This document shows, piece by piece, positions 2,812-31,127 of a stretch of DNA of 42,089 nucleotides (position 1 is its first letter; every line of letters starts with the position of its first letter). Source of the DNA: a virus; the IMG/VR virus record IMGVR_UViG_3300028394_000133, positions 1 through 42,089 of that record. One strand, given 5' to 3'. The translations under genes were made by a program, and so were the position numbers. The notes below the pieces were generated by a model that saw only the letters and a list, made by a program, of their open reading frames with translations, was not told where the DNA came from and ran no database searches.

Positions 2812-2835
2812 ATTTAGGTTGACTTGCCTAAATAT
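2810..2835 (-). promoter_or_regulatory. Start-codon hairpin of the radical SAM gene
   Basis: On the minus strand ATATTTAGG (2835-2827) pairs perfectly with CCTAAATAT (2818-2810), leaving the loop CAAGTCAA. The 3' arm contains the first two bases of the ATG at 2811-2809. RNA read through from upstream would therefore bury the start codon. RNA begun at the predicted late start (about 2827) would lack the 5' arm. On the plus strand the same inverted repeat brackets the -35 box of the queE promoter, so it could also serve as an operator. Confidence 0.55.
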
Positions 2836-2847
2836 TTATTGTACACT
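2819..2847 (+). promoter_or_regulatory. Host-type promoter for queE
   Basis: TTGACT (2819-2824), a 17-base spacer and TACACT (2842-2847) fit a bacterial sigma-70 promoter. Transcription would begin near 2854, just ahead of AAAGGAAT and the queE ATG at 2869. The -35 box lies in the loop of the inverted repeat 2810-2835. Confidence 0.6.
2833..2840 (-). promoter_or_regulatory. Candidate late promoter AATAAATA
   Basis: AATAAATA on the minus strand matches NATAAATA, the relaxed T4-like late promoter element. With T4 geometry (octamer at -13 to -6) transcription would begin near 2827, leaving about 16 bases before the radical SAM ATG. A/T octamers also occur by chance; position and hairpin geometry are the support. 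Confidence 0.45.
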
Positions 2848-2868: not shown

Positions 2869-3729
2869 ATGAGCAAAATAAAAATAGCAGAATTATTTTA
2901 CAGCATACAAGGTGAAGGACGCTACATGGGGGTACCCAGCGTGTTTTTACGCACCTTCGGTTGTAATTTTACCTGTCAAGGCTTTGGCATGCCAAGAGGC
3001 ACGTTTAGTATAGAAGCCGCACATATTGCTAGGAACCCTGAACAATTTAAAAAATATGAGGAACTACCGCTAGTATCAACTGGTTGTGACAGTTATGCTA
3101 GTTGGCATCCTGCTTTCAAAGATCTAAGTCCGTTGCTGACTACAGATGCTATTGTAGAACGTATTATGGAAATGCTTCCGCATAATGAATGGCGAGACGA
3201 ACATCTTGTGATTACAGGAGGTGAACCGTTATTAGGTTGGCAACGTCAATACCCCGACTTGCTATCACATCCCAAGATGCGTGGGTTAAAAGAAATTACA
3301 TTCGAAACTAATGGTACGATGAGATTGACTAAAGGTTTTAAAGATTTCTTAACAGCATGGCAACAGCCCGCATTGGGTTGTGCCAAAGATCATGAAATTA
3401 CATTCAGTATCAGTGCTAAACTTCCATGTAGTGGCGAGCCTTGGGCTGATGCCATTAAGCCCGAAGTAGTCTGCGATTACGAAAATTATGGTACTGCATA
3501 TTTGAAATTTGTCATTGCCACAGAACAAGACTTTGAAGATGCCCACCGTGCAACTAAAGAATATCGTGCGGCAGGATTCAAAGGGCATGTTTATTTGATG
3601 CCGGTAGGCGGCGTGGAAAGTGTTTACGCACTGAATAATAAGGCAGTGGCTATCATGGCAATGAACGCAGGTTTACGTTATAGTGATAGGCTACAGGTGC
3701 CGTTGTTTAAAAATGAATGGGGTACTTGA
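2869..3729 (+). CDS. queE: 7-carboxy-7-deazaguanine synthase-like radical SAM enzyme (QueE)
   Basis: This 286-residue protein begins with KIAELFYSIQGEG, the QueE N-terminal signature, then GVPSVFLRTFGCNFTC (Cys32, Cys36), and ITGGEPLL (GGEP at 117-120) for SAM binding. QueE converts 6-carboxytetrahydropterin to 7-carboxy-7-deazaguanine on the route to queuosine and to phage 7-deazaguanine DNA bases. The third cluster cysteine is not two residues after Cys36. Instead, 36 residues later comes TGCDSYAS (Cys73), which matches the usual CDxxYA end of the motif. Other QueE proteins also vary in this loop (a CX14CX2C form is known), so the enzyme is probably active. AAAGGAA precedes the ATG. No queC, queD, folE or transglycosylase gene lies in the window. 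Confidence 0.82.
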   Translation: MSKIKIAELFYSIQGEGRYMGVPSVFLRTFGCNFTCQGFGMPRGTFSIEAAHIARNPEQFKKYEELPLVSTGCDSYASWHPAFKDLSPLLTTDAIVERIMEMLPHNEWRDEHLVITGGEPLLGWQRQYPDLLSHPKMRGLKEITFETNGTMRLTKGFKDFLTAWQQPALGCAKDHEITFSISAKLPCSGEPWADAIKPEVVCDYENYGTAYLKFVIATEQDFEDAHRATKEYRAAGFKGHVYLMPVGGVESVYALNNKAVAIMAMNAGLRYSDRLQVPLFKNEWGT

Positions 3730-3777
3730 ATGCCAATTCCAGAACGTATCACCATTTACAAAAAAGAAGAAAGTATA

Positions 3778-4149
3778 ATGAATAAATTTATTAAAAAAAT
3801 ATTTGGCATTGACCAAAATAAACCTGATACAGAGGCTGAACGCATTGCCAAGTTAAGTCCTAAACAATTGGCTACAGAAAGAAAAGAACCGTGGGTTGCG
3901 GTACTAGATACTCATGTTAATAAAGACAATATTCGTAACGGATTTTTTGAACTTGACTGGAACGAGTACTTTGTGATGCAATTAAAATCTAATGGATTTA
4001 CAGGCGACAGCGAAGAAGAAATTGTAGATCAATGGTTCAGCGAATTGTGTCGCAATGTTGGAGCCGAGGAAGGAATTGATATGAGCCGACGGGGATCGGG
4101 CTATGTTAACAGAGCATTACGTGACGATGGCAAAACTGAGGTTTATTAA
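3778..4149 (+). CDS. Conserved hypothetical phage protein
   Basis: The product is about 123 residues if translation starts at 3778. The frame also has an ATG at 3730 directly after the queE stop, but AGAAGAAAG sits before the second ATG, which I prefer. The N-terminus is basic (KFIKKIFG), followed by a Lys/Glu-rich linker and a well-ordered domain (EPWVAVLDTHVN, NGFFELDWNEYFVMQLKSNGF, EEEIVDQWFSELCRNV). The look is of a small alpha/beta protein conserved among T4-like phages. No catalytic motif or membrane segment is seen. The stop overlaps the next start (TAATG), tying it to the RNase H gene. Confidence 0.6.
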   Translation: MNKFIKKIFGIDQNKPDTEAERIAKLSPKQLATERKEPWVAVLDTHVNKDNIRNGFFELDWNEYFVMQLKSNGFTGDSEEEIVDQWFSELCRNVGAEEGIDMSRRGSGYVNRALRDDGKTEVY

Positions 4150-5141
4150 TGAGTAAAACTTATATTCTGGTCGATACTGCTAATACATTTTTTCGTGCTC
4201 GACATGCTATTCGAGGTAGCTTGGAAGACAAAGTAGGTATGAGCATTCATACTGTGCTGGGCAGTGTCCGCAAGGCTTGGAAAGATTTCCAAGGCGATCA
4301 TGTCATCTTCTGTCTCGAGGGGCGTAGCTGGCGCAAGGATTATTATGCTCCATATAAACGTCAACGTACAGATGCTCGAGCCGCACATAGTCCCAAAGAA
4401 GCTGAAGAAGAAAAAGTATTTTGGGAAACGTTTGATCAGTTCAAAGATTTTATTATTAACAAGACCAATTGTACTGTACTACATAACCCTCAACTAGAAG
4501 CTGATGATCTTATTGCAGGGTGGATCCAGAATCATCCAGAAGACACGCATGTGATCATTAGTACAGACGGCGATTTTGCACAATTGATTGCACCCAATGT
4601 CAAGCAATATAATGGTGTAATGCAGATTACGACCACTCATGAGGGATACTTTGATGATAAGGGTAAGCCTGTTAAGGATAAAAAAACTGGCGAAACAAAA
4701 GGCGCTCCGGACCCTGCATGGTTACTCTTTGAGAAGTGTATGCGTGGCGACACCTCCGACAACATCTTCTCTGCTTATCCGGGAGTACGTGAGAAAGGCA
4801 CAAAGAATAAAGTTGGTCTCCGTGATGCGTTTTCCGATCGAGCCAGCAAAGGATATTCTTGGAACAATCTCATGCTCCAGCGTTGGTCCGACCACGAAGG
4901 TATCGAACATCGTGTGTTAGACGACTATAATCGTAATGTGGTATTGTGTGACCTTACTGCACAACCTGTTAACATCAAAGATTTAATTAAAGATACTATT
5001 CAAACTGCCACTACCGCAGATAAAAATATTCCACAGGTAGGTATTAGGTTACTAAAATTCTGTGCAGAATTTGATCTACAAAAAGTCAGCGAGCAAGTAA
5101 CCAGCTACGTTGAACCACTCAACGCAAGGTATATAAAATGA
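4149..5141 (+). CDS. rnh: RNase H / 5'-3' exonuclease (T4 Rnh-like, FEN family)
   Basis: This 330-residue protein shows the acidic active-site set of FEN-type nucleases: Asp9 in ILVDTAN, Glu57 in FCLEGRSWRKDYYAPYK, Glu117/Asp119/Asp120 in QLEADDLIAGW, Asp140/Asp142 in STDGDFAQLI, and Asp201/Asp204 in RGDTSDNIFSAYPGV. The last segment leads into the helix-hairpin-helix region that grips duplex DNA. The T4 homologue (305 residues) removes RNA primers and adjoining DNA from lagging-strand fragments. Length and motif order agree. The start overlaps the upstream stop and the stop overlaps the next start as ATGA, so the gene sits in a coupled replication/early operon. Confidence 0.88.
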   Translation: MSKTYILVDTANTFFRARHAIRGSLEDKVGMSIHTVLGSVRKAWKDFQGDHVIFCLEGRSWRKDYYAPYKRQRTDARAAHSPKEAEEEKVFWETFDQFKDFIINKTNCTVLHNPQLEADDLIAGWIQNHPEDTHVIISTDGDFAQLIAPNVKQYNGVMQITTTHEGYFDDKGKPVKDKKTGETKGAPDPAWLLFEKCMRGDTSDNIFSAYPGVREKGTKNKVGLRDAFSDRASKGYSWNNLMLQRWSDHEGIEHRVLDDYNRNVVLCDLTAQPVNIKDLIKDTIQTATTADKNIPQVGIRLLKFCAEFDLQKVSEQVTSYVEPLNARYIK

Positions 5142-5620
5142 ATTCAACAGCAAAGGTGCTTGTTCCAAATAAAGAATGGCTAGTACAAGACGGTAGAAAT
5201 AAAATTGGATCAATAAGCAAAATTAAAAAAGGTTATGCTTTTTTAAGAAATGGTAAACAAATTAATTTTAACGACCTGACGGAAATTTCAGCTCAATTTG
5301 GAGTGGCTGTTTTTGAAGAAAAAATCAAAAAAGTAAAATCTGAACAGGTAGAAAACAAAAATTATGCCATATATGATTTTCCGTGTAGCAGTAAGCCCTA
5401 CGATCCCATGTACAATGTAAAGAAAAAATTACCGTTGTTTGCCAAAAGCGATAAAAGTAAGAGTCAATATTGTGCAGGATACTATGTAATTAAATTTAGA
5501 AAAGGCTGGGTTAAGAGTTTTTGCCCTAAGCTAATTACACTAGAGAGATATCCTTTTCAAGGGCCTTTCAAAACCGAATCGGAAATGAAATCTACATTAA
5601 ATATTGTGAACAAATCATGA
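5138..5620 (+). CDS. Conserved hypothetical phage protein
   Basis: This 160-residue basic protein has two visible parts. An N-terminal ~65 residues (GRNKIGSISKIKKGYAFLRN) look like a small beta-barrel. A conserved core follows (AIYDFPCSSKPYDPMYNVKK, SKSQYCAGYYVIKF, GWVKSFCPKLITLERYPFQG). The core resembles a small protein often next to replication genes in T4-like marine phages; its function is not known to me. Cysteines occur singly, so a zinc site is not obvious. It overlaps the RNase H gene by four bases at its start and the next gene by four at its end, indicating co-translation. Confidence 0.65.
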   Translation: MNSTAKVLVPNKEWLVQDGRNKIGSISKIKKGYAFLRNGKQINFNDLTEISAQFGVAVFEEKIKKVKSEQVENKNYAIYDFPCSSKPYDPMYNVKKKLPLFAKSDKSKSQYCAGYYVIKFRKGWVKSFCPKLITLERYPFQGPFKTESEMKSTLNIVNKS

Positions 5621-5838
5621 AACAATTAAACACATTACCCATAGAAGATTTTTTAGATAGAGCCAGAATTGCTATTAAATCTAATCAAAAAAATTTAACT
5701 CTATCAATTAAAGAAGCCACTGACCTACAGAATAGTCTTGCAGTGGTTATGACTAGATTAACTGGTGAATTAGATCAAATTTCCGCAGAAAAGACGCCGG
5801 AAACAGTGACAATCAGTATGGACGGTGGAAAATTTTAG
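5617..5838 (+). CDS. Small helical hypothetical protein
   Basis: This 73-residue protein is mostly predicted helix (IEDFLDRARIAIKSNQ, SIKEATDLQNSLAVVMTRLTGELDQ), with hydrophobic residues at spacing that would suit a helical hairpin or coiled coil. It ends in a short acidic tail followed by MDGGKF. No enzyme motif is seen. It starts inside the upstream gene (ATGA overlap) and is the last member of this coupled run before a candidate late promoter. Confidence 0.6.
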   Translation: MKQLNTLPIEDFLDRARIAIKSNQKNLTLSIKEATDLQNSLAVVMTRLTGELDQISAEKTPETVTISMDGGKF

Positions 5839-5846
5839 TCTGATAG

Positions 5847-5854
5847 TATAAATA
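5847..5854 (+). promoter_or_regulatory. Late promoter TATAAATA
   Basis: An exact match to the T4 late promoter consensus lies in the short gap after the gene ending at 5838. With T4 geometry (octamer at -13 to -6) transcription would start near 5860, giving a leader of about 25 bases for the ATG at 5885. The octamer's last three bases are the first three of the 5' arm of the leader hairpin. Confidence 0.6.
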
Positions 5855-5886
5855 TATACACACTTTTTGGAGATATGTGTATATAT
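5852..5886 (+). promoter_or_regulatory. Leader hairpin over the ribosome-binding site
   Basis: ATATATACACA (5852-5862) pairs perfectly with TGTGTATATAT (5876-5886). The 13-base loop contains the Shine-Dalgarno GGAG (5869-5872), and the 3' arm includes the first two bases of the ATG at 5885. Early read-through RNA should fold and restrict initiation. RNA starting near 5860 keeps only three bases of the 5' arm and should be open. T4 genes e, soc and 49 are known to use this arrangement. Confidence 0.6.
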
Positions 5887-6184
5887 GAGCAGGCCAAAAC
5901 CAAATGTACTGTTAGAGGTTGCCAATAAAAAGACCTATAAAACAGAACAAGTCTTAGAAGCAGAAGCTATCTGGGCCGTATTCTATCAGGCCAAACCAAT
6001 TAATCTTAAAACCTCTAGTTTGGTCGGACATCAATTGGGCCCAAAATATAAAAAAGTTAGTTTTTCTAATAGCGGACATGCATTTAATCTAGCCGAAAAG
6101 TTAAACAAGTTATTCAATACAGAAGATTTTGATGTTTATAAGTTAACTACCGGTGAAAAGATAGTTGATGAACCAAAAAATTAA
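5885..6184 (+). CDS. Hypothetical protein under a late promoter and leader hairpin
   Basis: The product is 99 residues from the ATG at 5885; an in-frame TTG at 5867 would add six residues but lies at the Shine-Dalgarno itself. The sequence is basic and mixed alpha/beta (PNVLLEVANKKTYKTEQVLEAEAIWAVFYQ, HAFNLAEKLNKLFNTEDFDVYKL). The final stretch, with a conserved-looking FNLAEKLN helix, suggests a small nucleic-acid or protein-binding fold, but I do not recognise the family. Its own late promoter and sequestering hairpin point to a product that must be kept low early and made late. It overlaps the next gene by 17 bases. Confidence 0.6.
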   Translation: MSRPKPNVLLEVANKKTYKTEQVLEAEAIWAVFYQAKPINLKTSSLVGHQLGPKYKKVSFSNSGHAFNLAEKLNKLFNTEDFDVYKLTTGEKIVDEPKN

Positions 6185-6548
6185 AATTACCAAATACGTA
6201 GCAGAACAAATTGGGCTAGATGTTTCCGAAAAGTCAATAAGGAAACTCAAACAAGTTTGGTGGAAAAATCCTAGACTTAAAGAAAAGGGCGGCCTTAGAC
6301 TAACTGAAGAAGGTTACAATAGCCTGGTGTCAGCCGACATAAAGGTACATCGTGTTAAGTTTGATCCCATTGCGGAATATAATAATCAAGAAATTATTTG
6401 GTTAGATAACTTTATCGATTGCCCGTGGTTTTTGACCAAAAAAGAAATCTTTGTGTTCGGAGAAAAAATGGCTGTACAGCTGGTGTTGTTTTCCGGCAAC
6501 ATAAAAAAATTTGCCCACGCAAAAGCAGAAAATCTAAAAAGTTCTTGA
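6168..6548 (+). CDS. Conserved hypothetical phage protein
   Basis: The product is 126 residues from the ATG at 6168 (a TTG precedes it directly). The N-terminal half has a helical, helix-turn-helix-like look (ITKYVAEQIGLDVSEKSIRKLKQVWWKNPR, then GGLRLTEEGYNSL). The C-terminal half is IIWLDNFIDCPWFLTKKEIFVFGEKMAVQLVLFSGNIKKF, which resembles a small conserved protein of T4-like marine phages. The TEEGY segment is reminiscent of phage proteins whose fold reads a ramp-like DNA or protein surface; no catalytic residues are evident. The coding region ends right at the -35 box of the next promoter. Confidence 0.62.
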   Translation: MNQKIKITKYVAEQIGLDVSEKSIRKLKQVWWKNPRLKEKGGLRLTEEGYNSLVSADIKVHRVKFDPIAEYNNQEIIWLDNFIDCPWFLTKKEIFVFGEKMAVQLVLFSGNIKKFAHAKAENLKSS

Positions 6549-6573
6549 CACAGCCAGCGGTCTAGTGTACAAT
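6545..6573 (+). promoter_or_regulatory. Strong host-type promoter for the MoxR gene
   Basis: TTGACA (6545-6550), a 17-base spacer and TACAAT (6568-6573) match the sigma-70 consensus at 11 of 12 positions. The -35 box overlaps the stop codon of the upstream gene. The start site would be near 6580, giving a leader of about 55 bases to the ATG at 6635. Confidence 0.75.
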
Positions 6574-6634: not shown

Positions 6635-7714
6635 ATGGCTGAAAAAATTAGTTCCAATCGTTCAGTTACTCCGAATGAAGCCAAGCGAAGCATTCGCAAG
6701 TGCATCAAAATTCAGCGTCCTGTATTCATGTGGGGCCCTCCAGGTATTGGTAAGTCCGATATCGTTAAGCAGATCGGCGATGAACAAGCTCGTGAAGTTA
6801 TTGATGTTCGTTTGAGCTTGTGGGAACCTACCGACATCAAAGGTATTCCATATTACAATAGCACTGAGAACACAATGACTTGGGCTCCTCCTGCAGAATT
6901 GCCCACTGATCCAGAGTCTACCGCTATCCTGTTCTTAGATGAATTGAACAGTGCGGCTCCTGCTACACAGGCCGCGGCCTTCCAATTGGTACTTAACCGC
7001 CGTGTTGGTACTTATATCCTTCCAAAAGGTGTTTCAATCGTTGCGGCTGGTAACCGTGAAACTGACAAGGGCGTTACTTATCGTATGCCTGCTCCGTTGG
7101 CTAACCGTTTTGTTCACTTGGAATTGAAGAGCGATTACGAAGATTGGCTGGAATGGGCTGTTAAAAATAAAGTCCACGATCAAGTTGTAGGTTATGTTGG
7201 TTTTGCCAAACAAGACCTGTACGACTTTGATCCGAAAAGTTCAAGCCGTGCCTTTGCTACACCACGTAGCTGGTCTTTTGTATCAGACTTGCTCATCGAT
7301 GACGACCTAGACGAAGGTACCTTGACTGATTTGGTTGCAGGTGCTATTGGTGAAGGTCTGGCAGTTAAGTTCATGGCACACCGCAAAGTTGCTAAACAGA
7401 TGCCTAAGCCAGAAGATATTTTGGCAGGCCGTGTTACAACCTGCAATATCAAAGAGATTTCCGCCATGTACTCGCTGACAGTGTCTATGTGCTACGAACT
7501 CCAAACTGCACATGAGAAGAAGGTTAAAAATTGGGATTCCCAAGCAGATAATTTCTTTGGTTTTATGATGGATAATTTCCCAACTGAGTTGGTTGTTATG
7601 GGCGCCAAAGTGGCTCTAACAAATTATCAACTGCCTTTTGATGCATCTAAGTTGAATAACTTTGATCGCTTCCATACAAAGTACGGCAAGTTCATTATCC
7701 AAGCAATGGAATAA
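6635..7714 (+). CDS. MoxR-type AAA+ ATPase
   Basis: This 359-residue protein has Walker A GPPGIGKS (34-41), Walker B AILFLDE (97-103), sensor-1 Asn140 in AAGNRETDKG, and PAPLANRFVH (153-161) with the expected arginine finger Arg158. The order and the ANRF motif mark the MoxR/RavA clade. These ATPases form rings and work with a VWA-domain partner to remodel proteins or help insert metal ions. A metallopeptidase-like VWA gene follows directly. The ATG at 6635 is chosen over a TTG at 6620 because GAGAAAG precedes it. The gene is flanked by its own strong promoter and a strong terminator. Target unknown. Confidence 0.88.
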   Translation: MAEKISSNRSVTPNEAKRSIRKCIKIQRPVFMWGPPGIGKSDIVKQIGDEQAREVIDVRLSLWEPTDIKGIPYYNSTENTMTWAPPAELPTDPESTAILFLDELNSAAPATQAAAFQLVLNRRVGTYILPKGVSIVAAGNRETDKGVTYRMPAPLANRFVHLELKSDYEDWLEWAVKNKVHDQVVGYVGFAKQDLYDFDPKSSSRAFATPRSWSFVSDLLIDDDLDEGTLTDLVAGAIGEGLAVKFMAHRKVAKQMPKPEDILAGRVTTCNIKEISAMYSLTVSMCYELQTAHEKKVKNWDSQADNFFGFMMDNFPTELVVMGAKVALTNYQLPFDASKLNNFDRFHTKYGKFIIQAME

Positions 7715-7738
7715 AAAGGCCCGAAAGGGCCTTTTTTA
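7713..7738 (+). terminator. Intrinsic terminator with GAAA tetraloop
   Basis: A 10-bp stem (7713-7722 with 7727-7736; core GGCCC/GGGCC) is closed by a GAAA tetraloop (7723-7726) and ends in six T residues. It starts within the MoxR stop codon. This is a textbook rho-independent terminator and separates the ATPase transcript from the next gene. Confidence 0.92.
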
Positions 7739-7739
7739 C

Positions 7740-7768
7740 TTGCATTTTTTTTATATTGGCTGTATAAT
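7740..7768 (+). promoter_or_regulatory. Host-type promoter for the VWA gene
   Basis: TTGCAT (7740-7745), a 17-base spacer and the perfect -10 box TATAAT (7763-7768) lie right after the MoxR terminator. A start near 7775 leaves a short leader carrying CAGGAG before the ATG at 7798. Confidence 0.7.
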
Positions 7769-7797
7769 AGTATACATACAGTTAAACAGGAGCACAT

Positions 7798-9057
7798 ATG
7801 TCATCTAAATCAACTACTGCTACCAAAGGTACTAAGATTCAGAAAAAGAATTTCACTGAATCAGAAAAAAATAAAATTGTAGAAAAACTTATTACTGCTC
7901 GGATTGGCCTGTTGCTTCGTCATCCGTTTTTTGGTAATTTGGCAACACGCCTAAAACTTGTAGATGCAACGGATTGGTGTAGTACACTGGCCACAGATGG
8001 TCGCCACTTTTATTACAGCAACGACTTTGTAAACAAACTGACTCCAAAAGAAGCCGAGTTTGGATTTGCTCACGAGGTCCTTCACAACGTATTTGATCAC
8101 ATGGGGCGTCGAGATCATCGAGATCCAGTTCTGTCAAATATTGCGGCTGACTACGCGGCCAATCAAATCCTTAAAGATGAACGCATTGGTGAAGTGCCAG
8201 ATTGGATTAAAATTTTCCAAGACGACAAGTACCGTGGCAAATCATACGAAGAAATCTACGAAGAGCTCGAAAAGAAAGCTGTCAAGATTAATATTAGCGA
8301 CCTCGGAGAACTTCTCGACGAACACCTTGACGGTGAAGGCGAAGACGGTGCCGATGGCGAGGACGGAGACCAAGAAGGTAAAGGTAAAGGTCGCCCTAAA
8401 CTAACTGCTGAAGAAAAGAAACAAATCCGAGATGAGATCAAAGAAGCAATGGTAGCGGCTTCTCAGGCCGCAGGTGCGGGCAGGGTGCCTGCAGGGGTTG
8501 CACGTATAATCCAAAGTTTTACCGAGCCGAAAATGGATTGGCGTCAGATGTTGCGCATGAATATCCAAAGTATTCTTAAAAGCAACTTTAGTTTTAGTCG
8601 TCCTAACCGCAAGAGTCAGCATTGCGGAGCAGTACTGCCAGGCATGATGAACGAAGAAACTATTGATGTATCTGTGGCAATTGACATGAGTGGGTCTATC
8701 AGTGACAAAATGGCTATGGACTTCTTGTCAGAAGTTAAAGGTATCATGGATGAGTATCAAGACTTTAAACTAGACTTATGGACATTTGACACAGAGGTTT
8801 ACGGATACCAACGTTTTACAGGCGACACAGCCGATGAAATTATGTCATACAAATGCCAAGGCGGCGGCGGAACTGACTTTGACGTAAACTACGAGTTTAT
8901 GAAAAATGAAGGCATTGAGCCAAAACGTTTCATTATGTTTACTGATGGGTATCCGTGTGGTAGCTGGGGCGATGAAAACTACTGTGAAAGCCTGTTTATT
9001 ATCCACGGGAACGATACCATAATTGCCCCGTTCGGCCAGACAGCACACTATAAATAA
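7798..9057 (+). CDS. Metallopeptidase-like protein with C-terminal VWA domain
   Basis: This 419-residue protein has two domains. The N-terminal part carries AHEVLHNVFDHMGRR with an HExxH zinc motif (His92, Glu93, His96), followed by NIAADYAANQIL, as in DUF2201-type putative metallopeptidases. A highly acidic Gly/Glu/Asp linker spans about 178-195. The C-terminal part is a von Willebrand A fold with MIDAS residues DMSGS (296-300), GGGGTD (355-360) and FTDGYP (381-386). Such proteins are encoded beside MoxR ATPases, which act on or with them. CAGGAG gives a good ribosome-binding site. The last codons overlap a TATAAATA octamer. Its role in the phage is unknown; host-protein or virion-protein remodelling are options. 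Confidence 0.85.
   Translation: MSSKSTTATKGTKIQKKNFTESEKNKIVEKLITARIGLLLRHPFFGNLATRLKLVDATDWCSTLATDGRHFYYSNDFVNKLTPKEAEFGFAHEVLHNVFDHMGRRDHRDPVLSNIAADYAANQILKDERIGEVPDWIKIFQDDKYRGKSYEEIYEELEKKAVKINISDLGELLDEHLDGEGEDGADGEDGDQEGKGKGRPKLTAEEKKQIRDEIKEAMVAASQAAGAGRVPAGVARIIQSFTEPKMDWRQMLRMNIQSILKSNFSFSRPNRKSQHCGAVLPGMMNEETIDVSVAIDMSGSISDKMAMDFLSEVKGIMDEYQDFKLDLWTFDTEVYGYQRFTGDTADEIMSYKCQGGGGTDFDVNYEFMKNEGIEPKRFIMFTDGYPCGSWGDENYCESLFIIHGNDTIIAPFGQTAHYK
9049..9056 (+). promoter_or_regulatory. Candidate late promoter TATAAATA
   Basis: An exact T4 late octamer overlaps the last codons (Tyr-Lys-stop) of the VWA gene. Transcription would begin near 9062, eight bases before the ATG at 9070. Part of the match is dictated by the coding sequence, so it could be chance. 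Confidence 0.42.
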
Positions 9058-17501: not shown

Positions 17502-20500
17502 TTAAAATCCTTGTAGTGTGTTTCCTTGATCGTCTGTTACAGCAAATCCGCTGTCGTCAAACAATGCAGGATCACCTCCATAATAATACTTGTCAGGTAA
17601 TTCAGCAGGACGAGCTTGTAAGAATCTTGCAGGAACTGTAGTACTGTCCATTAGAGATTTAGTTGATTCTCCCGGCACTATCACATCATTCCAAACATCA
17701 TAACCGGCAAACTGACGTTTAACCATTGTTAATCTTACTCCTGGCTGTACCCCTTCCGGAATATTTAACGAAATTTCTTGCTTAAATTCATTAGCCACTA
17801 CTGAAAATTCTGGAGGGCGATACATTAACCCTCGATACTCATAACCGTTAACTGCATTTAGCTTATTAGATTGCGTATAGACCCAGACCTGATTGGTTAG
17901 TGTGGTTACATATGCGGTGCCAATAATTGTTGTGTACGGTAATGTTTCAGTAGATGTAGTAAAATTAACAGTATTAATGATAGGACTATCATAAGAAATA
18001 TTAATATCTTGATGATACGTTCCTAATTTATTCAGCAATCTACCTCCATAATATACAGATATTTGATCAGCAGAGTTTATGTAACTAGCCGTAGACAATA
18101 TTATACCATTGTTGTTAAATGATCCGGTGTTTACAGAATCTGTATAGAATTTAGATATATGATTATTTTTATAAACAGTATAGGCGGTACTGATGCCTGT
18201 TAAGGTATTTTGCACTAGAATGCTTTCATCAAACGGCACTGTTTGCTCAATGCTTTGATCGATAACTTTTGTATTTTCTTGGCTATAAAAACTTGGCGCT
18301 GTTCCTAATGTACTTCTTCTTAACTGCGCTAAGACATGAGCTGTACTGTAAGTTTTTCTGATAAAGGTTACTTCAGTTCCTGTAGTCAAAGCTATCGACG
18401 CAGTATTGTTCAAGGTTACCCTGTTTGATACTGTAGAAATAACTGTAGTCTCTAAAGGTATTCCCTGTATTGTTACAAAATCTCCCGGATTAATCAAATA
18501 GTTAGTACCGGTATCAATAGCGAGTACGTTTTCTCCAAATCTTGTTAGACCAATAATTGTTGTTGCGGTTACTAATGTTTGAGTTTCTACAGGTCTAGTT
18601 TCTGTTTTAAAGAATTCAATTCTTTCGCCGTCAATTATTACAACCCCAGGAATATTTGCTTCCACTGAAGGTCTAGCAAGCACTGTCAAGTCTGCTACAA
18701 AAATTTCTGTATCAGTAAAAGTTAACGGTTTTGTTAAGTAGGTAGTATTCTGTTTACTCAATCGTTTGAAGTGAGTCCTATTAAACAGATCATTGAATAT
18801 TCTGTGTCCCAGTATAGTCGATGATAATTTTTCACTGCTGAATGTTATGATAACAACTTTGTCAACGGGTTTGAAATTAAACCAATCGCTTACCTGTACA
18901 GTGACCTGATCTTCTAATATTTCAAAGTCAACAAAATTGACCAGAGGTATACCATTAACTGTGATCCAGATATAATTTTCATCCAATACAGGTCTACTAA
19001 TTTTATATCGTCGACTTGGGTTGCCGTTGAATACTTCTGTCCTGATCAACATGTCGTCTTGATTATTATAGGTAATAACTTTTATTTCACCAGACCAGTT
19101 GGTATTCCAACCGTAATAACCAAAATTAGTAACAGGAGCACATAATAATAAATTTGATCCCACAATATCATAATGATAATCTTGTTCAGGAAAATCAGCA
19201 GTACTTCCTGGTTTTCCTAGTATTGCAATTACATCTCCCCTACTTAACAGCGCCGAGTTAATAGTAACTTGATAAACTCCGTCAAGAAGTCCTACAGTAA
19301 AATCAAATCCTCGTTTTAATTCAGACCCGTTAATATATGTTCTAACTCTGGCTAGATCAAAATTTTTCAATGCGCCAGTGCTGGTCACATTGTTAATTGC
19401 ATAAGAATTATCTGCTGGATCTTCTACCTTATAATAATCTATATGAGGCGGTGTCAGCATGCTTCGTCCGCCTGTGGAAGTATTATAAAATTCAACTATT
19501 GCATTGGCCACAAATGGTTCAACTTCCCCCGGAGGGTTCTCTAAAGCATAAGGAATCTCAGTGTATGTACCTACAGGAGCACGAGCATCTACATTGATTA
19601 TTTGCTCATGGATTTCATTAAAGTACTTGTGCCCAAACCCAAAGAACCAAGCTGTTACCACATTAGGACCTGTGGCGGTTGACAGATTATAAACATTAGC
19701 AACCGCTCTGCGATTGTCGTCATCGGCATAGGTTAGTATGTAACCGTATTCAGTTGAGGTACTTACCGCAGGAATACTTTGTCCGTTGACTGTGACATAT
19801 GCTGATCGAACTGAGTCAATGCCAGCTAAACTTTGTACCTGTGCAGAACTAGTCGGAGGTATAATTGTAGCAGAATCAATAACTCCTGCTTCGGTATCTG
19901 GGCGGCCGCCACCGATGCTGATCACTGTGTATCTCACTAATCCAGAACTGCCTTGAGGTGGTATTATTAATTCATTTGTAGTCCAGTTAATTGCATATTG
20001 AGTACTGGTTGTAAAATTAGTATTTGTATTATATGAAAAAATTGTATTGGCATAACTGACCATTACACTGGCATAACTAGGAGGAACAATACTCATTATG
20101 CGAGTAGCAGTAGAGTTAGAATCTATAAAGAATGAAGATGATAAAACTACCGGTGCACCCTCTGGATTTTTTGTATAAACATTAATGCCTAGGCTTTCGG
20201 CTACGTGCCCGGGAACTAGCTCCTCAGGAGCATAGCTGTTGTCTGAACTAATAAATCTATCTCCATCTATAATAACATCTTCGGGATTTATTCCAAGGGC
20301 ACCGTTTGCAACTCCAGCGTTCCATGTGCCGCCAATGATGGCACTATCTAGCAAGGCCGAATTAACGCTATAACTCCAGAATTCAATAGTAGAAGTGTTG
20401 GGTATTGTTTTAACCGTAGTAGTGTTAACTGTAATCACCTTGGTTATCGGATTGATACCTACCACTTTAGCAATAGATGATCTGAAGATAGGTGTAGATG

Positions 20501-23500
20501 TACTGATCACATTTACTGACTGCCCTACAGTAATTCCACTAATGTCAGATACCGCAATGTTTGTCCAAGTACCGCCGACTACAGAAGACGACGCAGTTGT
20601 TACGGCACTGAAATATGTTCCAACTTCGTCGGCCCATAGGGCTCTATCAAAGCCTAGATAAGTATCCCATTTTGTACTATAATCAAATGTTAGCCCTTGG
20701 ATTGATGCCTGGGGGTAAACAATACCTGTCATTAACTGCCCTAAATCTAATCCTGGCATCCCCGATTTAGGTGTGTAATAGTTTAAAATTCTATCAACAG
20801 AGTTCAATACATCTGTACTCTTAATATAGGATATTTCAAGTGTCTGACCATTTAGCGGCACATAATTTAAAAATATTATTTTATTTTTATGCTGTAAATA
20901 TTCTTGAGAATCGGTAGAATATTCAGTATAGTACTTTATTGTATAATCTGAATTCAACACTAACTCACCGTCTAATGTTGCTACTATTTTATTTTTATCC
21001 GGATCTGCAACCCAAGATAAAATAAATTCATTAGTCGATCCATCGCAAACGAATGCGTCTATCGTGTTAAGATTACCTGTTTCGGACTGTCGACTTGTCC
21101 TATCAAATCTAATTCCAATAGTATTTTCTCGAACTTTACCATTTGATAATTTAGCATAGGCCACTGCATTAATTAAACCAGTAGATCCTCCGCCTTGAAT
21201 AACAACTCTTGGAGACCTACTGTAATTTTGTCCTGGGTTAGTTACGATAATATCGTAAACTTCACCTGATCGAATGTACGCTTCGGCAGTGGCCCCGGAG
21301 CCAGTATCTCCAGGCTCTGTAATTAGATCAACCTTCGGAGGGAATGTGTATCCTGCCCCCGGGTTTCCTATAGAAATTTCACCCACTCCGAACAGATAAT
21401 TATCAGCCCAGGCCTTCCAAGGCTGGGTATTCATTAAAGGATTACCAAAATTAACTGTGATAAATTTTTCTAAATTATTATCATAAACTGACGGTAAATC
21501 AAAGTCTGTCACATAGGTTTGACTTGGTTCTAATACCGTGTAGTTAGTTGTAAAATTTCGAATACTGGTATGGTATGGTTTAACTTCGCCGATATAATCT
21601 TCATAGAATTGACTATTTTGAAGTTTATAAATAGGTCGTTGATCCAAATCACCTGCATAATTTATAACATTGATAAATGATGTTTTGAATGCCCAGTCTA
21701 AAAGTTTTTGCTCACTTAACGCATATTTAACTGCTTTGAAGAACAACAAATTCCAGTTAATTTTTAACGCATTAACAAATAAATCGTCTCTTAATGCAGT
21801 CAATAGGTAGTGTAATTCAATATCTGGTATTTGGTCAAACAAAGTTTGGTCAAATGCACTGTTGTTATCATATGATAAATTACTATTTGAAAAATTCCAA
21901 ATGTTATCTAGTATTTTTATTGTGCCGTTTTCTGCATAGACAATATTGAAATTACTATCAAATGTACCATTCACTCCGTCTGATGTTTTTTCAACAATGA
22001 TATAAGTTCCAAGGCCTGCATCGTTAACCTTGACATACGATCCTACTGTTAATTCAGTCAATGTGTCTAGTTCATATACTTCATTAACTGTTGCCGAATA
22101 ATCTAAAAATTGGTTATATGTGTCCGACGACCAATCAATATAGTCCCAATACAATGAGGTGTTGTATTCTTGAGTATGAGCTCTAATCCAGCTATCTGAC
22201 AATTTGTCATAGATAAATTTTGTCCATTTGCCCGTAAATGACGTATCAGCTAACACTATTACTGTATAAGGCCTAACTGTTAACCGCGGAGCTGTGGCCA
22301 GTCCCTCACCGGCATTTTTAATTTCAGCGGAAATAACATGTCCTCGAGAATTAATTGTAGTAACTATTTCAGCACCGTTGCCTCCTTCAATAGTCACTAC
22401 TGGACTAATTTTATAACCTGCTCCGGTTTTATCAATAGAGACGCTACGGATTTTTCCATCTTTTATTGTGCAAGACAACTCCGCGGCAACTAACTGTCGA
22501 GTATCAATTAATAGCAGTGCTTCGTTATCTTCGACTACTTGATCGTATTCGTGACTATATTCATCTGGTGGAATTTCTTGTTTGTTTAAATTTTCAAAAC
22601 TATAATTTCCGGTAATTCTTTCTTTAGATAATACATCGTTAGCAAATTCAACAATATTTCTTAGAGCAGACAGTCTATCTTTAAACATGGTTTGTCTAGG
22701 CCTGATACCAACACCATAACGAGCCCTAGCAGATAGTGCAGGATCAGGTACAGTATTACCTAGGCTATCATGTCCTAATAAACTGTCCATTAATTTCTTT
22801 TCTAATAATGCATTAGGTCGACTAGTAGCTAATCCGTCTTGCAATAATAACCATTCAGTGTGTCTAGGTATTTCATTACTGATAGTGTCGGACGCAATAT
22901 TAAGGTGTATTCTATTATCAACTAATAAATTACCAACATTGGCTAATACTACTGCATCTTTAGCAATTATTGAAGCATATTGTAATCCATAAATTGTAGG
23001 ATTAGCAATTAGGCTTGATACTTGATAACTATTGATTCTTCTATTTTTTACATTAGGAACAACTAATTTATTTTTTACCCAGAAGTAATAATAATTTGTA
23101 AAAGAATCATTTATGCTGTTATAAAATTGTTTAGCAGACACCACTGAGTTATCAGGGTGTTTAGGTTGCCCGCTAATTCCTAAGGCAAGGCCTTCTGTGG
23201 TGTCGGCAAATGCCGCCCATTGACTCGGTAAGTATGTAGATCCTACCCATTCGTATACATCAATACTTGACCCTGGGAATAATCTTCCCCAGTTATTTTT
23301 TCTATACTCTAAGCTACCTTGTTCATACCATGAATATTTTACTGTGCTTAAATCCCACCATAGGTCTCCTACATGTTCTTCCATCCAACATGTATTAGGA
23401 TCATTTACTGTAGCATCCGTACCGATGGCATAAATTGCAGGATCAAAAGATGATTTGTATCGTATTTCTTGTTCTGCAAGACCTGAAATTTTTCCCTTTA

Positions 23501-26500
23501 ACGGATCAATTACATCAAGGTATTCAACTATTTCCTCATTGAAGGTATCAATTAACGATACCTTTTGAATAGCGTTTACAGATATTAAATTGTCCTGCTC
23601 TCTTAATAAATTTAAACTTTGTGCCGTGGTATCTTTTTTGTAAAACTGATAGAATGAACTGGTTGCCAAGTCTGGTGTGACAGAGTTTTTATAAGCCGGA
23701 GATCCAACATAGATACTATTTTGATTCAATGCAATACTAAACCCAAAGTTAGTTCCCGTAGTTGTATCCGGAGGAATTAGTTCGTCGGCTAATCTAAACA
23801 GATTATTTTTTCTGTTATATACATATGCCGTTCCCGAATATGTGATGGCATCAAAAAACGTTGTAGATTCAAGGTCAAATGTTGTCTGGGCATCTGATTG
23901 AGTACTATTAGGATCATTTACATATTGTGCTGTAAGATCAGGTTGTGTTCCTAGCAACAAAGAATATTTGTCAAAGGTTTCAGAAACATGTCGATTGGTA
24001 CCAATTGCTGATACTACTATTTCAGTAGCATCAGGGTTAATATCAACAGCCTGGCCAAACTTCATTCCTACACCGATTACAGGATTAGATATAATTTGTA
24101 ATAGAGTAAATGTACCAACTGAACTGGTTCTTTTATAAATTGCAACCTTACCATAAGATTGATCAGAATTTCGAGCTTCGGATGCAGTTACGCACATGTA
24201 ATTGCCGGTAGGACTAACAGCAATATCTGTACCAAATTTAGCATACTTGTCAAATGGACTATAAATTGTTTGTAAAAATTGAGTAGTTGTTCCTACAAAA
24301 ACTGTAACTAAACCTTTGTTGGAATCATACCCAGGGGCACTAATTGCAATTATTTCTGCATTGTCAGATCCGGTAATTATACTACCCCATTGACTGCCAG
24401 TGTTTGCCAAAGTAATTACTGGATTAATAACCTTGCCTTTATAAGAGATGTCAACGGTTCCTGTAGTGACTGTGCTGGTAGTGACCCAGTAAGAATAAAC
24501 AGTTCCTGTCCCAAGAGAATTAGTTTGGGGAGCACCTACCAATAGAAGCTTACCTAATGAAGTAGCAACTTCATAAATGCTAGTTCCAAATCGTTCGTAA
24601 TTAGATGGGTACGGGCTTAATAAAACTTTTTGTGTTTTTTCTTCTATTAAAGTTCCGTCAACGCTACTAATTTTAACCAGACCTTCCTGTGTCCTCGATG
24701 ATGCACTACCGGTACCCGATGCATATCTTAATGATCCAACTGCATCATTAGATTTAACTTTACTTGTAAGAGGGGCTCCTACAAACATCAATCCGTAGCC
24801 CGTTGGCCCATTACTGTCAATAAATTCTTGGCTGTCGTAGGCCAAATCCCATCCAAATCCAGTTTCATCACCTAAAGAATAATACTGTGTGATTCCTGTG
24901 TTAATTCCGTACCTGAACTTTAATTGTATAGAATTTCCAGATTCGTAATAAACAGATACGTTACCAGTGTTTACATTTTCTGTATACCCCGGACTACCTA
25001 CCATGAATATATTAGTCGGACTTGATCTACTGATACTCCATCCTAACTTTTGATCAGTCGGTGATGTGCTAGCAGAAACTGATAATTCGTGATAGTTTTT
25101 TATTTTTTGATAAACACTCCATTTATTATTGCCGTTATCATCGACCCACAACTTTGATCCTTCGGGCAATTCTAAAAGTGTTTGATCTGATGGTAAATTA
25201 TCAAAAGTACTATTTCTAGCACTGACGAATTTAAATAATAGTCCCGGAGAAGACGGAGTAATAGTACCTGCAACCACCGTAGAAGAATTTACAACAATGA
25301 AACGATTCAATCCAGGAACTGATTGAATTTTATATACACCATTAACTCTATCGTCAAACTCATTTACAGATACAACGTCCCCTACAGACAAATTGTGTAT
25401 GTAATCAGTGTAAAACTCAATTGTTCCTGCAACTTCGGTATCTGAAGTCATACTAACTAACTTAGCAGTGTCGAGATTATATTTTAAAACATCCCAATCT
25501 CCGTTGTTTTTAGAACCTACCCAAATAGTTGTTCCTTGTACAAGTAAATTAGTATTGGTTAACGTTAATATTTCAGATTCGTTAAACAGTGTAAAATCTA
25601 CATCGTCAAATCTTGCATATCCAGCAGTGGCTAATTGGAAAGAATCTGTTCCGGTTTCGGTAGTAAAAGTAGCAGTTGATTTATATTCTATAGGAGTAAT
25701 AGATAAATCTGCAGGCAAACTATAATAAATTAAATCGTTTGGTGTTGTAGGTGTTGTCTCAACAAAATTAATGACTTGAGGATTTTCAATGAACCCGCCT
25801 TCAACTAACGGTACTTCAATTTCTTTATAGGTTTCGTAAGATCCATAGTATCCAACTCGGAACGCCCACTCTTCGTTGTAATCAATTTGTCCTTGAAGAT
25901 TGTGGATTGTTGCTTTAGAAAGTTTACTAATTGCATTCTTAGTTCCCTTTTCTTTGATAAAACCTTGATAGAATTTATATTGAGCAATAGGATCTGTAAA
26001 AATATTGTTTAAGTAAACTCGAGGTGTATAGCCTGTTAGATGCTGTGCCATTTTTTGTTGGGCACTGTCAAAATTATCAATATCTAAACTGTAAAAATCT
26101 TCAAACTGACTAATTTTATAATCAAAATTTGACAACAATGCGGCTACAGGTTTTTCGCCTAGAGGAACCCATTTTGTAAAATCAAATTTTTCTGAAGAGG
26201 CAACATTTTGTTTAGCAGAATAATAATTTCCGTTGAAACGAACAACATCACCATATCGATAATTAGTGTATGTCTTCCAATCTGTTACTGTTGCTTCGTC
26301 ATATATAAAACCCGGACTGAAATAATCGCCATCCCAGTTTGCAGTTCTAAAACCTTTTACTTTCATCCTATGTTGGCGATATCCTGTGACTTTATCATAG
26401 ATAACATCATTAAACATAGTTCTATTTTTGAATACTAGACCGTGTTCTTTTTGTACAGAATTTAATCTAGCAAAATATATACCGTCAAAAGAATTTAATG

Positions 26501-29500
26501 TTTTGATTGTACATACTCCGTCTTCACGGTCGACTGACAAAGATGTTTTAGGAAACGGACGGCCATTGGCCTGTAATATACTATATTCGTAAAAACTATT
26601 AAAAATATTATCAACTACAGATGCAGGATTTTTAAATTTAATCTGATTAGCAAAAGGACTTAATGTAATGATATTTTGAGAAGCCCAGTTTTGTGTAGTC
26701 CAATATAAAAATTCTTTACATGTAAAGTCCCAATCAATAGCTGACTGAAGCTCACTGTTATATTCATCAAAATAGAACCCTTGCCCTTTGAGCCAGGCAC
26801 CGTATCCTATTAATAAATCATAGACTTCTTGAATTGTATTAAACTCTGTTCCGTAGGGAATATTTTTTTCTATACTGTCAATTGTACTTGCAATTTGCAC
26901 AGTGGCCCCGCCAATTATCGGCAATGCAGGTAACCTTTGGAAATAAGACTCAACAAAAGTATCACCACTTCTGTGGCTATTTTTAACCCTATAATAATAA
27001 TTTCCGTATTTTACTATCTGCCCTTGCTGATAATAAGTGCCTGATAATGCAGAATTTGCAGTAGTCGTATCAACTGACGATAACCCACTTTGCCCGATCG
27101 ATGAACTCGATGCCCATGTAATGTAAGGATCTGAAACTCCGCCTACTGTAATCGTCGGAGTGTCGGTATTTCTTAAAACAGTATAGACTGTAAAGTAAGG
27201 ATTATTATTATCATATCCTTTAACAATGAATTTGCCATTATTTTTTTGTACAATTACTCCAGAAATTGCAGTAGATTTAATAGGGTTACTAACATTTAAA
27301 ATTAAACTATAATCTTCCGGAGGAAGCAATGCTCCCTGACTAGTGCTGGTAGGCTCAATAGAATCAATAGTAATTTGTAATTTGTTTTTATTAACAAATC
27401 CGCCAGCTTTATAAAATAAATTAAAATCTGCATTATCAAGATCGGATCTTAGCTCTTTAATATAATTGCCGGTACGCTGAAGGCCAATTTCACTAACATA
27501 TACACTATAACCGCTGTTGGTTATAGTATCAGTCTCTCCGTGGATGCTTACATTTTTTAATTTTAAAAATTCAAAATTTGGCTCGTAGTCCCACTGCCCG
27601 GAAAGGTTTCGTCTAGTCTTAATCGGGTCATACATCAGCGACGCATAGGAAGCAGGACTTGTTAATGCCAATAGTTTTTGGATGACAAATGGCCAATAAC
27701 TGCTTCGGCGCCATGCGGTTTCGGCCGCACCATGATCTCCAAATTTCCAAGGCTGGCGGCGGTTATAAGCAGTTACATTTGTGGCTATTAATTGGGTCGG
27801 ATCTACTAATCTTCCTTGGTCGTCAACTGGTAATACTTTAGATAAGCCAGGTCTTGCATATTCAACATGCACTCCTGCACGGTATCCTTGTCTTACTAAT
27901 CCTTGTTCTAGATCTCTCCATAACAACTCGTTTCCAGAAGTGTAAGGTGCAGGACCATATTGGCTAGCCCACCAGGTTGGATACTCTGTAAAACCCAGCA
28001 TTTCCCACGGAGTATAATTAGGAGTGTCAGTATCGTAGAAATAATTAAATATCGATCTCCAACTTCCCGATAACTCAATGCCAAATTCTCTGTTATAACT
28101 TCCTGCGTAATTCCAAGTAAATGGATCATATTGATCAAATGCTGTATTTTCCTGATAGTCAATGCCGTAGGTTCCTGACCATTTAATAAAATCTCTTTGA
28201 ATTATTTCATTTACTTCTTTAACAGAATAATCAGATTTACGGAATGCTCCAGGTAATGCACCCATGAACTCGAATACATTTGAGTTATAAGGAAATTTAA
28301 TATTGTTATATACTCTCTTTTCAAATTCAAGAATGATATCATCTCTATAATCGTTATAAGCCGCCATGATACTGCCATCATGACATTTGATGGATTTGCG
28401 AAGGCCGTTTACATACGATCCATCATCATAGATGTATGGTCGGCTTTTTGGATAAAGTCCTAATTTTGTAGGTGTCGGCGGAATAAAAGATCCGCGAGTA
28501 TCGCGGTAGTCTTCGACTACTAAAATATCGCCTTTATTACGAGTTACCAATAACTGAACAGCAGAATTTGTCGGCGAATAATCGTACTGTGCTCCATGTA
28601 TTAATTGTACTCCGTTTAAGTATACCAAGACAGATCTATATGTATACCTTGAAATACCCGTAGCATCAAATGCTGAAGTAATAGGATAAGAAGAAATATT
28701 GGGATTAGTAATAGTCCAAGTTCTAGTATTTTTATCTGATCCATAGGCTATCATATCAGATAGATAGTAAGGTGATTGAACGTCCTTATCAACGTTTAAT
28801 TCTTTAAGTGCTATATCAACTGCGGTTACAGGATCAGTTTGTAACCCAATGCTGGCGATCTTTTTTAAGAAAGCCATTCTAAATTGATTATATTGATCAG
28901 CCGCAATTGTTATCGCATCAATGGCATTGTGTTCTTTTTTACCAAGGAAGAAATGCGCAAACGACATAGGATTTTTATTGGTTATAAACCTATTTCCCTT
29001 GGCAGAAATATTACTAAGATCTCTTAAATTGCTATCGCCTGGAAAATTGCCAGTAAATTCTGAAGTTTTAACAACCATCGATTTAACATGATCGCTTATT
29101 TCGCTAAGTGTAAAACTATCAGCATTTTCATTTAGTGGGTTATTGGTCAATCCTAGGGGAGTTTCATAATAATTTGATTCACCAACAGTTGTGGCAATAT
29201 CAGATTTTAATAACGGAATTTTATAAGGATCAGCTATTGACCAAGTATTAAAAAAGTTATCGCCAATCTTAAAAAATGTTGTGCTAGTAGGTATCGTTGT
29301 CTCATCTTCGGGCAAAACTATTTGACCGTCCATGAAATAATTTTTAAAAAGATAACTACCTACTCCGATACTATTTCGATAGTTTAAAGGAAACCCTAGG
29401 ATTGGATCTGCAGAGCCCGATCCTATATCATACCCAAACACTTTATTACCAGAAAAACTAGTAACATAGTAATTTAAATCACTAAAACTTGCTCTCCTAT

Positions 29501-31127
29501 AATCGTATAGATCAAATAAAGGCGCTTGATTTAATGCAGTTTTTTGTTGTGAATATTTCCATTCGTCTCCGTTAAACCACCAACTAGTTCCTGTGTATTT
29601 TTTACCATAGTTTACAGCTACTACTGATTCCGTTGCAGGGGCATCAACTTGTTCGAGGGTTAATCTTAATCTATTATTGATACCAATATAATTAACTTGA
29701 TAAATTTTTCCACGGACTTCGTTGTCAGTATCTGCTACAAATATAACTCTGTGACCTTGCGCTAATTGTACACCGTCAACATGATGTCCAGCAGACCCTT
29801 CAACTAAACTAAATGCGTCGGTTGTTTCTGTGTCAATTAAATCAACATTTTCTATGCCTCGAGACCCAAAGTTAAATAATTTAAAATCAGCTTCAAATTC
29901 AATAATAGGGCGTTTAGCTCTTAGGTTGGCAGGATATACAGGAGTTTGACCTGTGGCCAGAGCAGATGCGGTAATAACGTCTTTATGCACCCATCGATTA
30001 TATCTTGACCAAGGGTTTAAATCCCTACTTGCTCGATTGATCGTAATGTAATCAGGTGTTAATGGTAACTTCTTAAAACTATCAAATGGATAGTCATCAA
30101 AAGGAGTAGCGTCAAAATTTTCATTAAAAGTTGCTGTGGGAAGTTCAGCACAGTTTAATAAATCATATTCGACTAACCTAATGGCAATACCTACACCTTC
30201 AACAAAAAAGTCTCGATCTCTATAAAATTCGGGATACACATCTCCGCCAAATCTAATCTTCATACCATTTGACAGGACCACATTGTTTCCGGAAGTATAA
30301 TGTTTTTTACCTATAATATCTGTTTCAACATTTATTTGAGAATCTTCTGCAACTGCTTTGACAGAAATTTGCCCTTGTGCATATTGTTGAGTATCACTGA
30401 CGTAGAATAAAGTATCTGGAGTATTGTTATCGATTGTAACAGAAATTATTCCGGTACTGGTTCCATTATTAGTAACTCCAAAATTAAATTGATCTCCAGT
30501 ACCCAGGGTGGCAGAAGTTTTAATGTAAAATTTAAAAGAAGAGTCAACTTTGAAGTGATAGGTGTTTCCTCTGTAAAGAGAAATTAACGGATTAGCAGTT
30601 AGTCCATCGGGGGTAAACACAAACGCAGTTTTTGCTCTGTTGTTTACAACAGTATATGTACTGGTACTATTTTTTGGAGATCCGTCAATTGTTATAACAT
30701 TTGGACCGGTAACCAACCAATAGTATTGCTGATAGTTGATTAATTTATCCCAGTCAATATGAGGATTATAAGAATAAAACTCGGGCCTAAACAATCTGTC
30801 AAAGTTATCAACTTTACTACCTTGTATAGACAGCTCGTTGACTAAATCATCTAATGCCACAACATCAGTTACATTATCAGAAGAATCTCTAATTACCAGG
30901 GCAGGATCTAATTGATAATTTCTTCTCAAAGGCAGTGTTTCAGAAATATAGATATCTGCTGTAGAATTGTAGGTAACAGTTTCGGTGTCACCTATATATC
31001 CATCGAGACGTTCAACTTGCGGTTTCTGTATTAACTGATCAATTGTGCTGGATAGAAATTTAGAATTTCTATCTGTTCTTAGAAACTCCGGAAGTAGATT
31101 TACTGATTTAATAATTTTATCTGCCAT
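17502..31127 (-). CDS. Giant 4541-residue baseplate/tail structural protein
   Basis: A single uninterrupted frame of 13.6 kb directly after gp6, where T4 has genes 7 to 10. The N-terminus ([38 protein letters not shown]) resembles a large virion protein of T4-like marine phages. Roughly residues 2030-2490 hold repeated blade-like segments ([59 protein letters not shown]) typical of FG-GAP/integrin-type beta-propellers. Later come [17 protein letters not shown] and GAGYxxxPxVxI repeats near 2900 and 3260. No enzyme motif was recognised. It overlaps neither neighbour; gaps are two to three bases. The role is probably a baseplate-periphery scaffold with adhesion modules. Confidence 0.75.

Follow-up and report, generated by a model that had tools for sequence, protein, structure and literature searches.

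The gene for a 99-aa protein at positions 5885 to 6184 of the window (by which we mean the whole stretch of viral DNA analysed, 42,089 nucleotides) very probably has an early-off, late-on leader, judging from its sequence and from comparison with its relatives: a late promoter lies within the hairpin that contains the ribosome-binding site (RBS) of the gene. The elements of this arrangement and its surroundings are the following.

5847..5854 (+): core of a T4-type late promoter, TATAAATA (-13 to -6), read from the sequence
5852..5862 (+): 5' arm of the hairpin, -8 to +3 of the promoter, one half of a perfect inverted repeat
5860 (+): predicted late transcription start (+1), placed by T4 numbering (PMC2988020)
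5869..5872 (+): Shine-Dalgarno (SD) sequence GGAG in the hairpin loop, 12 nt 5' of the ATG, read from the sequence
5876..5886 (+): 3' arm of the hairpin, over the SD-ATG spacer and the first two start-codon bases, A and T
5885..6184 (+): 99-aa open reading frame with its ATG at 5885, the regulated gene (M[SA]RPKP...PKYKK.SFSN.GHA.NL)
6168..6548 (+): downstream gene, 126 aa from the ATG at 6168, overlapping the 99-aa gene by its reading frame
2819..2847 (+): possible sigma-70-like promoter, from a consensus scan only (9/12 matches)

The first-pass annotation had placed the promoter, the stem, the GGAG, the ATG at 5885 and the 99-aa frame, and all of these proved exact to the base. The stem, 5852-5862 with 5876-5886, is Watson-Crick at 11/11 pairs and closes a 13-nt loop, with a distance of 36 nt from the TAAATA to the ATG. 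We propose that RNA entering from upstream, through early or middle transcription of the 2869-5838 block, would carry the whole hairpin 5852-5886, which would bury the SD-ATG spacer and the start codon and hold GGAG in a closed loop, so that the 99-aa gene would be poorly translated. A gp55-type sigma factor would redirect the host RNA polymerase to TATAAATA, transcription would begin near 5860, and the resulting late RNA, minus eight of the eleven 5'-arm bases, would form no hairpin and would be translated. The loss of eight bases, which the annotation had also claimed, holds if +1 is 6 nt past TATAAATA; this agrees with the numbering of T4 late promoters, in which the first T is -13 (PMC2988020) and which thus puts +1 at 5860. 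The predicted folding energy is -14.8 kcal/mol for the early leader of the window versus -4.5 kcal/mol for the late one. In this scheme, it is the start site, the read-through from upstream, the size of the translational effect and the reason for avoiding early expression that we infer. As to read-through, the genes of the 2869-5838 block lie on the same strand, no terminator-like site was found on the + strand from 2847 to the hairpin, and transcription from the predicted sigma-70-like site at 2819 into the hairpin is plausible. The 6168-6548 gene is probably co-transcribed with the 99-aa gene.

Taken by itself, the hairpin of the window is only moderately unusual for such A/T-rich DNA (fold z = -1.8; 9/200 shuffles fold equally well), and it is the comparative data that carry the case. 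The string TATAAATA is likewise not enriched in the window (4 found vs 6 expected). The 12 nt between SD and ATG make a long gap, and we count this against our explanation.

Protein relatives number several hundred in IMG/VR (three overlapping scans matched 589, 588 and 220 stretches), while a scan with the homologue from phage SCTP-2 as the query returned zero relatives. The comparison covers 244 loci, namely 240 IMG/VR contigs and the jumbo phages PA5oct, Atu_ph07, Phosso and SCTP-2, and 155 distinct leaders among these homologues, the window included. In every one of the 244 loci TAAATA is found 16-63 nt 5' of the homologous gene; shuffled 70-nt leaders contain it in 12.6% of cases.

There is support, from the placement of the motif across genomes, for TAAATA acting as a late-promoter core. 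In a 328-kb relative, G001, no hexamer is more enriched at 12-60 nt upstream of genes (62 found vs 8.3 expected), and in the reverse orientation it occurs upstream of genes 15 times. TTGACA and TATAAT are likewise enriched upstream of genes in this genome. In the window, structural genes have TAAATA upstream of them, at 24-26 nt for a baseplate wedge gene (start 34598) and a virion protein gene (start 40610), and at 23 nt for a tail-fibre-like gene (start 12311). Over the window as a whole the hexamer is depleted (31 found vs 70 expected), as if avoided away from promoter positions. The window itself is a 42-kb fragment; among its relatives, a gp55-type late sigma is present in 13/13 of those searched (phrog_12791, E <= 2e-82); one has also been reported for Atu_ph07 (PMC6102473). 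The sliding clamp activates late promoters in T4, and the T4 clamp family phrog_223 gave 0 matches in 10 relatives (G001-G006 and the four named jumbo phages), nor did it match in the control genomes. We count the missing clamp against our explanation, but the search may be insensitive. A gp55-type sigma together with no phrog_223 match would mean either a divergent clamp or another mode of late-promoter activation. A literature search found no paper on the late promoters of these jumbo phages.

Each leader was scored by its best stem between the segment that follows TAAATA and the ribosome-binding and start region, a score >= 7 being called strong. A strong stem is present in 95/155 distinct leaders (61%) vs 4.7% of dinucleotide shuffles, and the score of the window's own stem was reached by 0/2,800 mononucleotide shuffles made from the 56 leaders first compared. 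A looser criterion (at least 4 pairs in the minimum-free-energy fold) was dropped as the main measure, as 33% of shuffles pass it. MAFFT with RNAalifold on 37 leaders returned zero consensus structure; the loops vary from 5 to 30 nt in length, which misaligns the 3' arms, and for this reason alignment was replaced by register-aware counting with matched shuffles and arm swaps. It is on this counting, set against matched shuffles, that the claim of covariation rests.

Across the 95 strong-hairpin leaders, Watson-Crick or G-U pairs make up at least 94% at positions -6 to +1, and Watson-Crick pairing is down to 43% at +3. The pair at -4 is Watson-Crick in 94/95 leaders (AT 82, GC 8, CG 3, TA 1), and that at -2 is AT in 50, GC in 39 and GT in 5; compensated pair types and G-U intermediates also occur at pairs -5 to +1, so that compensation is seen at nearly every pair. 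When arms were swapped between loci with unlike 5' arms, in the first 56 leaders, the Watson-Crick fraction fell from 0.885 with the own arm to 0.60, a conservative control given that some arm sequences are common by descent. Base-pair probabilities, which involve no choice of register, give the same band: positions -5 to +1 pair with the RBS region at a mean probability of 0.72-0.79, compared with 0.31-0.38 for shuffles. The pairing is concentrated at -6 to +2, and the stem would thus cover the promoter-to-start segment absent from late RNA, and little beyond. For RNA that begins at +1, the predicted mean unpaired probability of -13..+3 is 0.74, up from 0.32 for early RNA, with a rise in 93/95 leaders. 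An SD-like motif is present in 112/115 leaders classed as RBS hairpins. Two leaders, L042 and L057, lack any SD-like motif although their hairpins (11 and 13 bp, around the start) are strong; these unexplained cases we count against our explanation.

On the comparative evidence, then, the hairpin is more than a product of chance. The comparison of homologous leaders that the annotation had called for did turn up compensatory changes in the stem, which ends at +2/+3, and at each inferred step the comparison lends support to its reading of a late promoter that removes a translation-blocking hairpin.

The same observations bear on other ways of reading the repeat. It overlaps the promoter, and basic stretches (RPKP, PKYKK) are conserved in the 99-aa protein, so that the repeat might be a DNA operator at which a repressor dimer, perhaps of this very protein, blocks the late promoter. 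We regard this as very unlikely, since a loop of variable length and a stem that changes freely with compensation, G-U pairs included, fit RNA pairing and do not fit a fixed spacing of half-sites; moreover, the stem changes in this way while the proteins of close relatives are about 80% identical, and the 99-aa protein matches no known DNA-binding fold. That the hairpin instead serves as the RNA operator of a repressor acting in trans (like RegA or gp43, or in autoregulation), its overlap with the late promoter being secondary, seems to us equally improbable. Leaders repressed by proteins do exist in T4 (PMC3014915), and GGAG is displayed in the loop; however, little is conserved beyond TAAATA, the SD and the pairing, the loop varying in both length and sequence, there is no Rfam match, and an RNA operator would give no reason for the stem to stop where late transcription is predicted to begin. 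Least likely of all is a genuine late promoter in an A/T-rich leader with an incidental hairpin, for although A/T partners for TAAATA are easy to find and the promoter persists in several homologues without the hairpin, a score >= 7 is far more frequent in the distinct leaders than in their dinucleotide shuffles or at other TAAATA genes, the pairing is lost on arm swap, and G/C at -1/+1 opposes the usual composition of the promoter.

The other genes preceded by TAAATA number 105, in five relatives and the window, and only 3 of them have a strong stem, the rate expected by chance. The bases at -1/+1 are mostly C and G at the 99-aa gene and A/T-rich at the 105 others, as would be expected if pairing overrides the promoter's preference. 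Further TAAATA hairpins in G001 (at 132251, 136820 and 243553) were discarded, as their frequency is at the chance rate.

The late promoter within the RBS hairpin is thus our preferred reading for the window, but the hairpin does not accompany the gene everywhere. Phosso, PA5oct, L025 (at 83% identity), L221 and others keep both the gene and TAAATA and have no strong pairing; among the four named jumbo phages, 0/4 have a strong hairpin. The annotation had held that phages retaining the gene should not lose the pairing uncompensated. Such cases do exist, in PA5oct and Phosso and in a small number of others, L025 and L221 among them, so the pairing is neither universal nor essential everywhere. 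The promoter is accordingly the constant element and the hairpin a trait of lineages.

Some of the leaders of this second kind have other structures near the promoter. A terminator-like hairpin lies just 5' of it in 13/40 leaders without an RBS hairpin, vs a background of 3%, and in 2/114 hairpin leaders; a simple Fisher test gives a strong association (p = 3e-7). A long hairpin upstream of the RBS, with its beginning in TAAATA, is seen in L147, L163 and SCTP-2. In L163 the stem is G/C-rich and a T-rich tract comes after it, so that this hairpin may be a terminator whose 5' arm holds the late promoter. It is tempting to propose that one family of small proteins is always encoded behind a late promoter across a wide range of gp55-encoding phages, while lineage-specific devices block read-through: an RBS hairpin that overlaps the promoter, an intrinsic terminator directly 5' of it (PA5oct, Phosso and the L142-L181 group), or a long hairpin starting in TAAATA (L147, L163 and SCTP-2). 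We find this broader scheme possible, if somewhat doubtful, and offer it as a lead only, because the tree test (six independent pairs, almost none informative) could not show independent replacements; the idea that terminator and hairpin replace each other independently is unsupported there. If it were true, early expression would be strongly selected against, and interchangeable early-off devices would evolve around a fixed late promoter.

The annotation had called the 99-residue protein unrecognised. It does lack any annotation, for searches of Pfam, PHROG, NCBIfam and the PDB, by sequence and by fold, gave nothing convincing, and the only fold matches are two uncharacterised phage proteins; but it belongs to a large and strongly conserved phage family, with 21 invariant columns among 66 sequences and homologues in PA5oct (EST35_0330), Atu_ph07, Phosso and SCTP-2. 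No plasmid homologue was found. Its predicted structure has a mean pLDDT of 87.7. That the protein would be harmful or useless early, and hence need late-only expression, is suggested by the leader alone. A similarly sized gene follows the homologue in PA5oct, Phosso and SCTP-2, as the 126-aa gene does in the window. Beyond it, 6635-9057 encodes a MoxR-type AAA ATPase and then a DUF2201/VWA metallopeptidase-like protein, for which the PHROG label 'HNH endonuclease' looks a misnomer given the Pfam match; a strong sigma-70-like promoter (TTGACA-17-TACAAT) lies at 6545-6573, directly 5' of the MoxR gene, and in Phosso an AAA ATPase likewise comes after the homologue. Elsewhere in the window, 17502-31127 (-) is one open frame of 4,541 aa amid tail and baseplate genes.

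Translation of the T4 genes e, soc, 49 and I-TevI is repressed by leader hairpins of this sort, about 100-fold in the long RNA of gene e (PMC3014915). Passed through the same pipeline, T4 soc, e and 49 have TAAATA 32-35 nt before the ATG, a 5' arm formed by the box-to-start segment, a folded early RNA and a more open late RNA. The analogy drawn by the annotation is thus borne out by a common geometry: the T4 genes and the window gene are alike in a late promoter core near the ATG and a 5' arm between the box and the late start. They differ in that the SD of e and 49 is in the stem, whereas the window has its SD in the loop, with the 3' arm lying over the spacer and start codon. The window gene has no detectable relation to e, soc or 49, and the phages studied here are gp55-encoding members of a mostly jumbo lineage, not of the T-even group. 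In the leaders of I-TevI, I-TevII, I-TevIII and Aeh1 mobE, the RBS is likewise sequestered in read-through RNA, and I-TevI is freed by a late promoter, as proposed here (PMC3014915); those are homing-endonuclease genes, whereas the gene here lies outside any intron and encodes a conserved 99-aa protein other than a homing endonuclease. The split ribosome-binding sites of T4 genes 25 and 38 also have a hairpin between or around the SD and AUG. That hairpin improves translation by shortening the SD-AUG gap, which is not possible for the window's hairpin because its SD is inside the loop.

A known kind of T4 regulation is thus well supported, on comparative grounds, in a separate lineage of mostly giant phages. 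The mechanism was worked out in T4 with e, soc and 49, and the same design would now be found in well over a hundred distinct natural leaders, with a pairing end point that agrees with the late start expected from T4. This provides a rule for finding further genes under such regulation. It also marks an unstudied and highly conserved small phage protein as probably late-only, which makes its function testable.
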